The notes beneath the pieces were generated by a model that was given only the letters and a program-made list of their open reading frames with translations, did not search any database and was not told where the DNA came from. 50,429 nucleotides of DNA from Streptosporangiales bacterium (lineage in GTDB: Bacteria; Actinomycetota; Actinomycetes; Streptosporangiales; Streptosporangiaceae): the NCBI GenBank assembly GCA_009380095.1, contig WHSL01000014.1:1-50429 (forward strand), written 5' to 3'. Numbering within the stretch: position 1 is the first letter of the stretch; each line of letters opens with the position of its first letter. Position numbers and translations under genes: made by a program. This document shows, piece after piece, positions 13,845-18,145 of this stretch.

Positions 13845-14355
13845 ATGCCACTGCGGGTACGGGCCCGGACCGGCCGGGACGTATGGGGCGGCGCCGCGAC
13901 GACCGCCGAACCGGCCGCGCTGCCCGCCGCGATTCTGCGCGCGGGCGCCGCGGCCTCCAGGACGGGCGGTACGGGCGGGCGGCCGTACCGGAACGCCGAT
14001 GAGCGCGCGGGCACGGCCTTGCTGCGTGGCGCGTTCGGGGGAGCGGCGGGGGCGCGGTTCGCCGAGGCGGTGCTGGAGCCGCTCCGGGTGTACGACGTCC
14101 GTAGGCGGGCCGGCACGCCGACTCTCGTCCAATGCCTGCGCACGTTCCTGGACGAGGGCCAGAATCTGGAGGGCGCGGCCCGTACGCTCCAGATCCACCG
14201 CAACACCCTGCGCGCGCGGCTCCGCGCGGCCGAACGCGCCACCGGCCGCGACCTCACGGACCCCGGGCGACCGTCTGGAACTCTGGCTCGCCACCACCCT
14301 GAACCACGGCCACGACGACCCCCCGCCCCTTGCGGCCCGAGGCGGAAAACGATGA
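13845..14355 (+). pseudogene. Relic of a PucR/CdaR-type regulator, frameshifted
   Basis: The 3' half still encodes a recognisable PucR C-terminal helix-turn-helix: RFAEAVLEPLRVYDVRRRAG, then TLVQCLRTFLDEGQNLEGAA, then RTLQIHRNTLRARLRAAE and ATGRDLTDPG. At about 14264-14270 the family-like reading moves to another frame, which continues DRLELWLATTLNHGHD to a stop at 14353-14355. One extra base in the run CCCCGGGC explains this. Upstream of about 13950 similarity fades, and most of the expected sensor region is absent. The fragment is therefore a truncated, frameshifted remnant; a sequencing error could account for the frameshift but not for the lost N-terminus. Confidence 0.6.
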
Positions 14356-14433
14356 GGTAGATCCGCCCCTTGGTATCGATCGGATGACTATTAGGGCGAA
14401 AAGCTTCCTGCCAGCCCGGGAAGACGAAAGAAA

Positions 14434-14474
14434 CTTACGTCTAGCGCGGATCGGTGCGCTCTGACGTAAGGAGG
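14434..14474 (+). promoter_or_regulatory. Hairpin overlapping the ribosome binding site of the peptide-binding protein gene
   Basis: CTTACGTC (14434-14441) pairs with GACGTAAG (14463-14470), and inside it AGCGC (14443-14447) pairs with GCGCT (14456-14460) around an eight-base loop. The outer right arm runs into the Shine-Dalgarno AAGGAGG (14468-14474), nine bases before ATG 14483. In RNA the stem would partly mask the site; in DNA it could be an operator. Pairing is observed, function inferred. Confidence 0.5.
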
Positions 14475-14482
14475 GTCGAGCC

Positions 14483-16105
14483 ATGAAGAGGTTCGTCCAC
14501 GGCCGCCTCGGGGTGGGGCTGGCGGCATTGGCCTTGGTGGCAGCGGCCTGTGGTGGCGGCGGCTCCGAGGAGAGCACCACCAAGACGTTCTCGGTCGCGC
14601 TCACCGAGCCTGCCCACCTCAACCCGGGCGACTCGAACGAGAGCTACGGTATCCAGGTCATCCAGAGCCTGTTCGACCGGCTCACCGAGCTCGACCCTAA
14701 GACGGGCGAGCCGAAGATGCAGCAGGCCGAGTCGATCACCTCGAACGACCAGAAGGTCTGGACGATCAAGCTCAAGCCCGGCCTGACCTTCCACAACGGC
14801 GAGAAGGTCACCGCCCAGAGCTACGTCGACGCGTGGAACGCGGCCGCGTACGGCCCCAACGGCTGGGCCAACAACTACTTCTTCGGCAACATCGAGGGCT
14901 ACGACGCCCTGAACCCGGAGGACCCGGACGAGGACGGGCCCAAGGAGGCCCCGAAGCCCGAGTCGGACGAGATGTCCGGCCTGAAGGTGACCGACGAGAG
15001 CACCTTCGAGGTGACGCTCACCGCACCGCTCAGCCAGTTCCCGCTGACCCTGGCCTACACCGGGTTCGTGGCGCTGCCCAAGGTCGCCTTCGACGACTTC
15101 AAGAAGTTCGACCAGGCGCCGATCGGCAACGGCCCGTTCCAGATGGACGGCGTCTGGCAGCACAACCGGGAGATCAAGCTCAAGCGCTTCGCCGGCTACA
15201 AGGGCAACCGCCCGGCCAAGGCCGCCGGACTCGTCTACAAGATCTATCCGAACAACGACACCGCCTACACCGACCTGCAGGCCGGCAAGGTGGACGTGCT
15301 GCTGACCATCCCGGCCGCGAAGGTCCCGTCGGCCAAGCGCGACCTGGGGGAGCGCTTCCTCGACACCCCCGCGGGCACGATGGACTTCCTCGCGTTCCCG
15401 CTGTACGACAAGCGCTTCGACGACGTGAACCTGCGCTACGCGATCTCCATGGCGATCGACCGCGAGGCGATCACCAAGGCGGTTTACAACGGCGCGTACA
15501 AGTCCAGCAAGTCGCTGGTGGCGCCGATCGTGCCGGGCTTCCGCGACGACCCGTGCGGTCAGCACTGCACGTACGACCCCACCGGCGCCAAGGCCCTGTA
15601 CGACAAGGCCGGCGGCATCGACGGCCCGCTGGAGCTGTGGTTCTCCAACTCCGACCCCACGTACCGGCAGTGGATGGAGGCGGTGGCCAACCAGCTCAAG
15701 CAGAACCTCGGCATCAGTGAGATCAAGTTCCGCTCCATCCCGGCGGCGGACTACCTGACGACGCTGAGCGAACACAAGGCGACGGGCCCCTACCGGCAGA
15801 ACTGGGTGATGGACTACCCGAGCGCCGAGAACTACCTGGGCCCGCTGTACGGCAGGGACGGCGGCTCCAACCGCGGCGGGTACAGCAACCCGCAGGTCGA
15901 CGCGCTGATCTCCAAGGGCAACGGGGCCAAGAGCATCCGAGAGAGCATCACCTACTACCAGCAGGCCGAGGACCTGGTGCTGAAGGACATGCCGGTCACG
16001 CCGCTGTGGAACTGGCGGCAGCAGTCCGGTCACTCCGACAACGTGTCCGGGATCCTCATCGACCCCTACATTCAGCTGCACGTCGACAAGGTCGTCGTGA
16101 AGTAG
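14483..16105 (+). CDS. Oligopeptide/dipeptide ABC transporter substrate-binding lipoprotein
   Basis: A 540-residue extracellular solute-binding protein (family 5, OppA/DppA type). The N-terminus MKRFVHGRLGVGLAALALV ends in AAAC, a lipoprotein signal with the modified Cys at about residue 23, followed by a Gly/Ser/Glu linker. Family features include VALTEPAHLNPGDSNESYG, QSLFDRLTELDPKTGE, LKPGLTFHNGEKVTA, APIGNGPFQMDG and a C-terminal LKDMPVTPLWNWRQQ. Start and expression are supported by a strong AAGGAGG. First gene of a three-gene unit with two permeases. The ligand is probably an oligopeptide; nickel or other ligands cannot be excluded. Confidence 0.92.
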   Translation: MKRFVHGRLGVGLAALALVAAACGGGGSEESTTKTFSVALTEPAHLNPGDSNESYGIQVIQSLFDRLTELDPKTGEPKMQQAESITSNDQKVWTIKLKPGLTFHNGEKVTAQSYVDAWNAAAYGPNGWANNYFFGNIEGYDALNPEDPDEDGPKEAPKPESDEMSGLKVTDESTFEVTLTAPLSQFPLTLAYTGFVALPKVAFDDFKKFDQAPIGNGPFQMDGVWQHNREIKLKRFAGYKGNRPAKAAGLVYKIYPNNDTAYTDLQAGKVDVLLTIPAAKVPSAKRDLGERFLDTPAGTMDFLAFPLYDKRFDDVNLRYAISMAIDREAITKAVYNGAYKSSKSLVAPIVPGFRDDPCGQHCTYDPTGAKALYDKAGGIDGPLELWFSNSDPTYRQWMEAVANQLKQNLGISEIKFRSIPAADYLTTLSEHKATGPYRQNWVMDYPSAENYLGPLYGRDGGSNRGGYSNPQVDALISKGNGAKSIRESITYYQQAEDLVLKDMPVTPLWNWRQQSGHSDNVSGILIDPYIQLHVDKVVVK

Positions 16106-16127
16106 CACCGGCTTGTAGGCCTCGTCT

Positions 16128-16165
16128 CGGCCGTTCCGGCGTGGGAGACCCCGCCGGGACGGCCG
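16128..16165 (+). other. Intercistronic hairpin between binding protein and permease
   Basis: Arms 16128-16141 and 16152-16165 form a 14-bp stem with one T-G wobble and a ten-base loop. No T-run follows, and the permease gene starts 40 bases later. Such structures often stabilise the upstream message and lower downstream expression, which fits the excess of binding protein over permease usual in these importers. Confidence 0.5.
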
Positions 16166-16204
16166 GGCCATGTCGGCGGGACAGAACGTTAAGGGGAGCA
16201 GCAC

Positions 16205-17149
16205 ATGTGGCGGTACGTGGCGCGGCGGCTGCTGCAGATCGTGCCGGTCTTCATCGGCACCACGTTTCTGATCTACGCGCTGGTCTTCGCGCTGCCGGGC
16301 GACCCGATCCAGGCGCTGTCCGGCGGCAAGCCGGTGCCGGACTCGGTGCTGCAGGCGCTGCGGGACCGCTATCACCTGGACGAGCCGCTGCTGGTGCAGT
16401 ACGCGCTCTACCTCGGCGGCCTGCTCACCGGCGACTTCGGTGAGACCTTCACCGGGCAGGACGTGTTCACGCTGATGTCCGAGGGCTGGGCGGTCACGGC
16501 CCAGCTGGCGATCACCGCCTGGCTGTTCGAGCTCGTCCTCGGGGTGAGCCTCGGCGTGCTGGCGGGCCTGAACCGCGGCCGGGCGCTGGACACCCTGGTG
16601 CTGGCCGGCACCACGCTGGTGATCGCGGTGCCGGTGTTCGTCGTCGGCTACACCGCCCAGCTGCTCGTCGGGCTGAAGCTCGGCGTGCTGCCCACGGCGG
16701 GCATCGACGAGGGCTGGCCGGTCAGCTACGTGCTGCCCGGCCTGGTGCTCGGTGCGTTCGGGCTCGCGTACGTGGCCCGCCTGACCCGCACCAGCCTGGC
16801 GGAGAACCTGCGCGCCGACTATGTCCGTACGGCGGTCGCCAAGGGCCTGCCGCGCCGCCGCGTGGTGCTCAGGCACACGCTGCGCAACTCGCTCATCCCG
16901 GTGGTGACCTACCTCGGGATCGACTTCGGCAACCTGCTCGCGGGCGCCGTCGTCACGGAGGGCATCTTCAACCTGCCCGGCATCGGGCAGCAGGTGTTCT
17001 CCGCCATCCAGTCCAAGGAGGGCCCCATGGTGGTCGGCGTGACCACCTTCCTCGTGCTGGCCTTCCTGCTGGTCAACCTGATCGTGGACCTGCTGTACGG
17101 GGTGCTGGACCCACGGATCCGCTACGCGGGATCGGGGGCGCGCGCATGA
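16205..17149 (+). CDS. Peptide ABC transporter permease, DppB/OppB type
   Basis: A 314-residue inner-membrane permease with the N-terminal signature MWRYVARRLLQIVPVFIGTT and six predicted helices. The cytoplasmic EAA-like loop that contacts the ATPase is DYVRTAVAKGLPRRRVVLRH. Other typical pieces are FALPGDPIQ near residue 30 and VVTEGIFNLPGIGQQVF near 255. AGGGGAG lies six bases before the ATG. Its stop overlaps the next start (ATGA). Works as a heterodimer with the following gene product and an ATPase encoded elsewhere. Confidence 0.92.
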   Translation: MWRYVARRLLQIVPVFIGTTFLIYALVFALPGDPIQALSGGKPVPDSVLQALRDRYHLDEPLLVQYALYLGGLLTGDFGETFTGQDVFTLMSEGWAVTAQLAITAWLFELVLGVSLGVLAGLNRGRALDTLVLAGTTLVIAVPVFVVGYTAQLLVGLKLGVLPTAGIDEGWPVSYVLPGLVLGAFGLAYVARLTRTSLAENLRADYVRTAVAKGLPRRRVVLRHTLRNSLIPVVTYLGIDFGNLLAGAVVTEGIFNLPGIGQQVFSAIQSKEGPMVVGVTTFLVLAFLLVNLIVDLLYGVLDPRIRYAGSGARA

Positions 17150-18081
17150 CCGGCCTGCGCGGCGGGCAGCCGGAGACCGGCATCGCGCCGGGGGCGGAGC
17201 ACGCCGCCACGGCCGAGGCGGGCGGCACGCTGCGGGCCGGGGGCCTGTGGACGGACGCCTGGCACGACCTCGTCCGCCGCCCGCTGTTCTGGGCGTCGGT
17301 GGTGGTGCTCGTGGTGATGAGCGTGATGTCGGTGGTGCCCGGGCTGTTCACCTCCCAGGGGCCGAACGAGGGCTGCAACCTGCGCTGGTCCAAGGTGGGC
17401 CCGAGCGCGGGGCACGTCTTCGGGTTCGACGTGCAGGGCTGCGACTACTGGACGCAGGTCGTGCACGGCGCCCGCCCGTCGATGGTCATCGGGCTGGCGG
17501 TGACGATCGTCGCGCTGATCGTCGCGGTGATCCTCGGCTCGCTCTCCGGCTACTACGGCGGCTGGCTGGACTCCGTCATCGCGCGGGTCACCGACATCTT
17601 CTTCGGCCTGCCGTTCGTGCTCGGCGCCACCGTGGTGCTCGTCGCCTTCCCGGACCACGGCATCGGCGCGATGTGCCTGGTGCTGGTCGTGCTCGGGTGG
17701 ACCACCATGACCCGGGTGATGCGCGGCCAGGTGATCGCGGTCAAGGACGCCGAGTACGTGACCGCGGCGCGGGCGCTGGGCGCGGGGGGCGGCCGGGTCA
17801 TGTTCCGGCACATCCTGCCCAACGCGATCGCGCCCGTCTTCGTGGTCGCGATGCTCAACGTCGGCAACATCATCGCCGGCGAGGCCACGCTGGACTACTT
17901 GGGCGTGGGCCTGCAGTACCCCACGGTCTCGTGGGGCCTGCAGCTCAACGTGGCCCAGGACTTCTTCCTCGACTACCCGCACCTGCTGATCTTCCCGGCG
18001 GTGTTCCTGTCGCTCACGGTGCTGAGCTTCATCCTGCTCGGCGACGCCGTGCGGGACGCGCTCGACCCGCGCCTCCAGTAG
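17146..18081 (+). CDS. Peptide ABC transporter permease, DppC/OppC type
   Basis: A 311-residue permease. A cytoplasmic N-terminal tail of about 40 residues is followed by DAWHDLVRRPLFWASVVVLV, the family's first helix. The EAA loop is DAEYVTAARALGAGGGRVMF, followed by RHILPNAIAPVFVVAML. The GDAVRDALDPRLQ end is typical for DppC. Start overlaps the preceding stop. No ATP-binding subunit follows: after 64 bases comes a convergent peptidase, so DppD/F-type ATPases must be supplied from another locus, or the transporter is incomplete. Confidence 0.92.
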   Translation: MTGLRGGQPETGIAPGAEHAATAEAGGTLRAGGLWTDAWHDLVRRPLFWASVVVLVVMSVMSVVPGLFTSQGPNEGCNLRWSKVGPSAGHVFGFDVQGCDYWTQVVHGARPSMVIGLAVTIVALIVAVILGSLSGYYGGWLDSVIARVTDIFFGLPFVLGATVVLVAFPDHGIGAMCLVLVVLGWTTMTRVMRGQVIAVKDAEYVTAARALGAGGGRVMFRHILPNAIAPVFVVAMLNVGNIIAGEATLDYLGVGLQYPTVSWGLQLNVAQDFFLDYPHLLIFPAVFLSLTVLSFILLGDAVRDALDPRLQ

Positions 18082-18145
18082 CACCCTCCCCTCGGGGTCG
18101 GCGCCGGCCCGGCCAGGCCCCCAGCGGGTCAGGCCGCCGGCCCGG

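Follow-up and report, generated by a model that had tools for sequence, protein, structure and literature searches.

Does the inverted repeat that runs into the ribosome site of a peptide-importer gene control that gene, and would it do so as RNA or as DNA? The window, meaning the whole stretch of 50,429 nucleotides analysed here (contig WHSL01000014.1 of a Streptosporangiales bacterium), carries at 14483–18084 an importer cluster of a binding protein and two permeases; an adjacent ATPase gene was not noticed among the open reading frames (ORFs) read. The solute-binding protein (SBP) contains LVAAAC, which we take to be lipobox-like. Downstream in the window, the opposite strand carries a DPP IV/S9 peptidase gene, and M55 D-aminopeptidase and M20 peptidase genes are found near orthologous SBP genes (L141:392-1231 and L140:1807-3126). 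These peptidase neighbours suggest that the importer takes up small peptides, perhaps ones containing D-amino acids. The following features define the repeat and the genes behind it.

14434–14441, + strand: 5′ arm of the outer stem, CTTACGTC (direct sequence, fold and pattern search)
14443–14447, + strand: 5′ arm of the inner stem, AGCGC (sequence and fold)
14456–14460, + strand: 3′ arm of the inner stem, GCGCT (sequence and fold)
14463–14470, + strand: 3′ arm of the outer stem, GACGTAAG, whose last three bases, AAG, are bases 1–3 of the Shine–Dalgarno (SD) sequence (sequence and fold)
14468–14475, + strand: SD sequence, AAGGAGGG, 7 bases 5′ of the ATG (sequence)
14474–14498, + strand: second small hairpin, GG.CGAGCC / GGTTCG.CC, whose loop holds the start codon (predicted solely by the MFE and centroid folds)
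14483–16105, + strand: gene for a lipoprotein-type SBP, SBP_bac_5, dipeptide/oligopeptide type (ORF; PF00496, E 1.2e-72)
16205–17149, + strand: ABC permease gene, DppB/OppB type (ORF; PF00528, PF19300)
17146–18084, + strand: ABC permease gene, DppC/OppC type (ORF; PF00528, PF12911)

Read directly, positions 14434–14485 of the + strand run CTTACGTC T AGCGC GGATCGGT GCGCT CT GACGTAAG GAGGG TCGAGCC ATG. The outer arms pair perfectly over 8 bp, and the 5 bp of the inner arms are lengthened in the RNAfold prediction by a G14448–U14455 pair that leaves a 6-nt loop. A 1 × 2 internal loop (T14442 opposite C14461 and T14462) separates the two stems, and the hairpin 37-mer has a fold energy of −19.7 kcal/mol (all folding energies were obtained with ViennaRNA at default settings). 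Direct sequence and fold thus confirm the nested perfect stems of 8 and 5 bp, reaching into the SD, that the original prediction described. Its claim that the hairpin masks the SD holds in part: the 3′ arm covers AAG and the cost of opening the SD is above the median, but the remaining SD lies outside the dyad stem. As the outer 3′ arm stops at G14470, just AAG (14468–14470) of AAGGAGGG is in the stem, and the masking is therefore only partial. The MFE fold leaves positions 14471–14473 single-stranded; GG at 14474–14475 is predicted to pair within the second small hairpin.

The energetic burden was compared across 81 SD-bearing gene starts of the same genome, which were drawn from the window and 20 further stretches; they were identified by simple criteria of SD, ORF length and codon-position GC instead of a gene finder. 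Opening the SD costs 8.05 kcal/mol against a median of 5.29, a value equalled or exceeded by 12 of the 81 starts, this one included. Opening the region from the SD through the start codon costs 13.8 against a median of 9.8, placing the gene at rank 14 of 81. The unpaired probability of the SD (27th lowest of 81) and the local MFE (23rd lowest of 81) are both ordinary. For a transcript starting inside the dyad, the in silico fold leaves the SD bases AA free and part of the remaining SD still paired.

The rarity of the structure depends on the yardstick. Of 3000 dinucleotide-shuffled leaders, 27 contained a perfect stem of at least 8 bp on the SD, and shuffling the 37-mer 1000 times never gave a fold as stable as −19.7 kcal/mol. 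Among the 81 starts, two carry such a stem, one being the dyad at 14434–14470; the other lies at about 49610 on the + strand (TCGATCGT/ACGATCGA). Measured against shuffles the structure is unusual; measured against real sequence, less so. The 141-nt leader is ordinary overall (z = −1.11, with 22 of 200 shuffles equally good), and 886 of 33,596 37-nt segments across the 50-kb window are at least as stable as the hairpin. The dyad is somewhat unusual at its position; equally strong hairpins are common in the G+C-rich DNA here. A pattern search gave this site as the sole match in the window and in the whole genome, and a repeat family or mobile hairpin is ruled out by the lack of a second copy in that genome. 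A scan found no intrinsic terminator.

The original prediction further offered a switch controlled by temperature, a ligand or a protein, and of this no sign emerged: the stem remains closed at 65 °C in silico, thermometer hallmarks are absent and Rfam gives no match. In PMC11342760, ROSE-like thermometers are defined by a U(U/C)GCU sequence that pairs imperfectly with the SD, plus a bulged G, and PMC11342760 and PMC12857270 describe thermometers upstream of ABC-transporter genes that depend on this imperfect UYGCU–SD pairing and bulged G. The fourU type is defined, in PMC12857270, by four consecutive U residues paired with the SD. The present hairpin resembles the ROSE-like and ROSE-G thermometers of PMC11342760 and PMC12857270 in that its stem reaches the SD of a gene for an ABC importer. 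It differs from them in that the strand facing the SD carries neither U(U/C)GCU nor CUGCU and no G is bulged, its CUU pairing perfectly with AAG; it shows no local instability, the stem pair probability being 0.99 at 65 °C (ViennaRNA, in silico); and the SD is largely outside the stem. It also adjoins the SD as fourU hairpins do, but CUU faces AAG, and neither sequence nor fold places a run of four U residues against the SD. No Rfam family reached its gathering score anywhere in the window, and the leader gave chance-level matches only (15.4 bits against a gathering score of 42.5, and 11.3 against 43). A thermometer or riboswitch was rejected on hallmarks, in silico melting and Rfam.

A true RNA switch, in which the hairpin would free the SD on a thermal, ligand or protein signal, is accordingly weighed as unlikely. 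In its favour, a nested stable stem sits at the SD, and PMC11342760 and PMC12857270 report thermometers in front of ABC transporter genes, with genes for substrate-binding proteins among them and actinomycetes among the organisms. Besides the missing hallmarks, the closed perfect stem and the larger part of the SD lying free of it, neither an alternative fold nor aptamer-like conservation was found, and no homologous hairpin was found in relatives. A looser parallel is the control of enterobacterial oppA/dppA by the sRNAs GcvB and MicF, where the leader of a peptide-binding-protein mRNA is likewise the control point (PMC9988348). That case, from E. coli, differs in that an sRNA acts in trans together with Hfq, and it implies no relation of sequence or structure to the present one. 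No earlier report of the 14434–14470 hairpin was found in a search of the open-licence literature.

Conservation was examined beyond the genus, for which a single genome exists. The closest protein homologue of the SBP is 63% identical; among 297 genomes of the order, none besides its own held a closer homologue at E ≤ 1e-217. A BLAST search of 337 family genomes for a counterpart of the leader DNA matched its own genome only (1 of 337). The relatives comprised 78 loci from 72 distinct genomes, six genomes occurring under two names (L056–L061 duplicate L109, L113, L117, L121, L115 and L118, as judged by identical leaders). Seventy of the 72 are family genomes, taken from 92 others in the family with a homologue at E ≤ 1e-130; one belongs to another family and one comes from Peterkaempfera.

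When the leaders were read, the hairpin was absent from all 78 relative loci, and the leaders of orthologues from other genera were unalignable across the stem. Among 341 family genomes, the exact arms with a spacer of 10–32 were present in 4, its own included, against 2 for a reversed control pattern, and the spacers differ in the three other genomes. Of the 77 leaders from relatives, 6 had a stem of at least 8 bp on an SD-like GGAG; every one of these belongs to the CCTCTCCG/CGGAGAGG type and to the group termed set A below (L007 was left out of this count, having no start by the rule used). RNAalifold, applied to the 47 unique set A leaders with a start, returned zero pairs and no common structure. 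A conserved SD hairpin in relatives is therefore not claimed, despite those six stems; from the sequences compared, the dyad is apparently unconserved or lineage-restricted.

The feature that is conserved at the family orthologues is promoter-like DNA. An element, ATACGTAA, is common to 50 distinct genomes, 70 family orthologues having been examined of the 92 found. These form set A (56 loci, 50 distinct genomes, including L003–L008, L031–L045, L048–L053, L056–L061 and others), in which GGAATACGTAAA-N3-TCCGATG is followed by TA[CG]CCTC[TA]CC and then by the SD, upstream of the SBP gene. In Microtetraspora malaysiensis, the set A intergenic region is shared with a divergent LuxR-family regulator gene, of which the window's genome has no clear orthologue, giving HTH-sized matches only. 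Set B includes 11 relatives (L122–L132, two genera) that have in common a TCTCGATCCGGTGACGAATC-type element of 22 bp; in most of them TACGAC lies 48–49 nt 3′ of this element, the hexamer being exact in 6 of the 11 and TATGAC in 1. A third type of conserved block, a GGTAGG(T/A)AT(A/G)TTTC...ATCTACC-like imperfect dyad, was seen upstream of the SBP gene in g73 relatives (L046, L047, L093, L096, L101, L102, L105 and L114). Sets A and B were delimited, −10 elements read and spacings counted by eye on the output of scripts. Two sites in the window are relevant to this comparison.

14372–14393, + strand: 22-bp element, GGTATCGATCGGATGACTATTA, matching by PWM the motif of 11 orthologous promoters from two other genera
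14436–14441, + strand: TACGTC, a possible −10 element inside the 5′ arm, suggested by its resemblance by eye to TACGAC

The 11-member PWM scores 19.3 at 14372–14393, the next best site on both strands of the window scoring 10.8, and 0 of 351,108 positions in a genome sample score at least 19.3. The set B members themselves score 28–34 with this PWM, which marks the window site as a diverged copy. With a g37-only matrix, the window site scores 15.0 against 17.0 and 15.2 in two other-genus members. At the stringency TCGATCNGRTGAC, it is the sole noncoding site in the genome, two others lying inside open frames as judged by reading. Its distance to the ATG is 106 from the anchor, within the 80–155 of the relatives. 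The site is thus a putative, and probable, promoter/operator DNA of the peptide importer. Upstream, positions 13845–14357 hold a remnant of a PucR/CdaR-type regulator; the match is confined to the C-terminal HTH_30 domain (E 4.3e-16) and the protein appears to continue in another frame, so that the remnant looks like a decayed gene. This broken PucR-type HTH remnant is the only regulator DNA upstream of the dyad.

The main rival to a static hairpin, possible though the less favoured, is that the dyad itself is promoter or operator DNA, the latter being an alternative that the original prediction also named. It is tentatively proposed that TACGTC acts as a −10 element, with transcription starting at about 14448–14450 inside the repeat, in which case the RNA hairpin would never form; each arm also reads ACGTAA on one strand, and the two may serve as half-sites for a regulator covering the promoter and the ribosome site. 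Consistent with this, the conserved features of the relatives are DNA (ATACGTAA with TA[CG]CCT in 50 genomes, the 22-bp element with TACGAC in others), and TACGTC lies 47 bp 5′ of the ATG, where TA[CG]CCT of set A stands about 33–46 bp before the start (two leaders, by eye). ACGTAA is the invariant core of set A and is rare in the genome (5 per 175,994 sampled bases, both strands), yet it occurs twice here as a dyad, although the comparison of the dyad arms with set A was made after the fact. The spacing is less favourable, TACGTC being 59 nt from the shared-element anchor against 48–49 in relatives; the hexamer does not end in the T of a good −10; a scan found no sigma-70-type promoter, and neither a good −10 nor a good −35 can be seen. 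For the LuxR-family regulator of set A, moreover, there is no clear orthologue here. As in ordinary palindromic operators and promoter dyads placed over a translation start, the two ACGTAA half-sites form an inverted repeat close to the start. The half-site centres are, however, about 29 bp apart, and the dyad is unique in the genome and absent at orthologues, so that it defines no regulon; such a lack of recurrence would also be expected of a single-gene operator.

Two more elaborate explanations carry far less weight. It is improbable that the ACGTAA half-sites of the regulator, which lie upstream in relatives, have in this lineage come to form a dyad spanning promoter and ribosome site, so that one repeat would control the importer at two levels, in DNA as an operator and in RNA as a stem blocking the SD. 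Least credible is translational coupling, whereby translation of an upstream ORF would open the hairpin. A 26-codon ORF does occupy 14384–14464 on the + strand, from an ATG at 14384 to a TGA at 14462–14464 in the 3′ region of the hairpin; it is in frame with the SBP gene and stops just 5′ of the SD. Its ATG has no SD (the upstream sequence is CGCCCCTTGGTATCGATCGG), its GC3 is 58% against 97% for the main gene, and its start falls within the conserved element at 14372–14393. On these features, the ORF is probably not translated.

A lineage-specific static leader hairpin, or a neutral repeat, remains the most likely reading, at roughly an even chance. The ordinary SD accessibility and local MFE, the stem still closed at 65 °C, the chance-level Rfam matches, the confinement of the leader to its own genome, the absence of pairs in RNAalifold and the DNA nature of the shared upstream element all agree with it. 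Set against it are the scarcity of SD stems of at least 8 bp in shuffles and among real starts, the stability of the 37-mer beyond 1000 of 1000 shuffles, and the six relatives' leaders with an SD stem, which suggest that structured starts recur at the SBP gene. We infer that the transcript contains the whole hairpin, whose effect would be small and unregulated. A transcript starting upstream of 14434 would form a static stem-loop against the SD of the peptide-binding-protein gene, adding about 3 kcal/mol to ribosome loading relative to the median gene; the stem would then be a moderate constitutive brake, or neutral, and would act as neither thermometer nor ligand switch. Regulation of the importer would more likely proceed through upstream promoter DNA, of which 14372–14393 would be the conserved trace.

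A stem beside a ribosome site is of a kind that G+C-rich genomes hold by the hundreds, and as it stands it has little significance. Were a regulated switch shown, an actinobacterial peptide importer would join the ABC-transporter genes for which leaders of the thermometer type are published. Of more use, as a by-product, are the two strongly conserved kinds of DNA element in the promoters of this importer in the family, which could lead to the regulator of peptide uptake.
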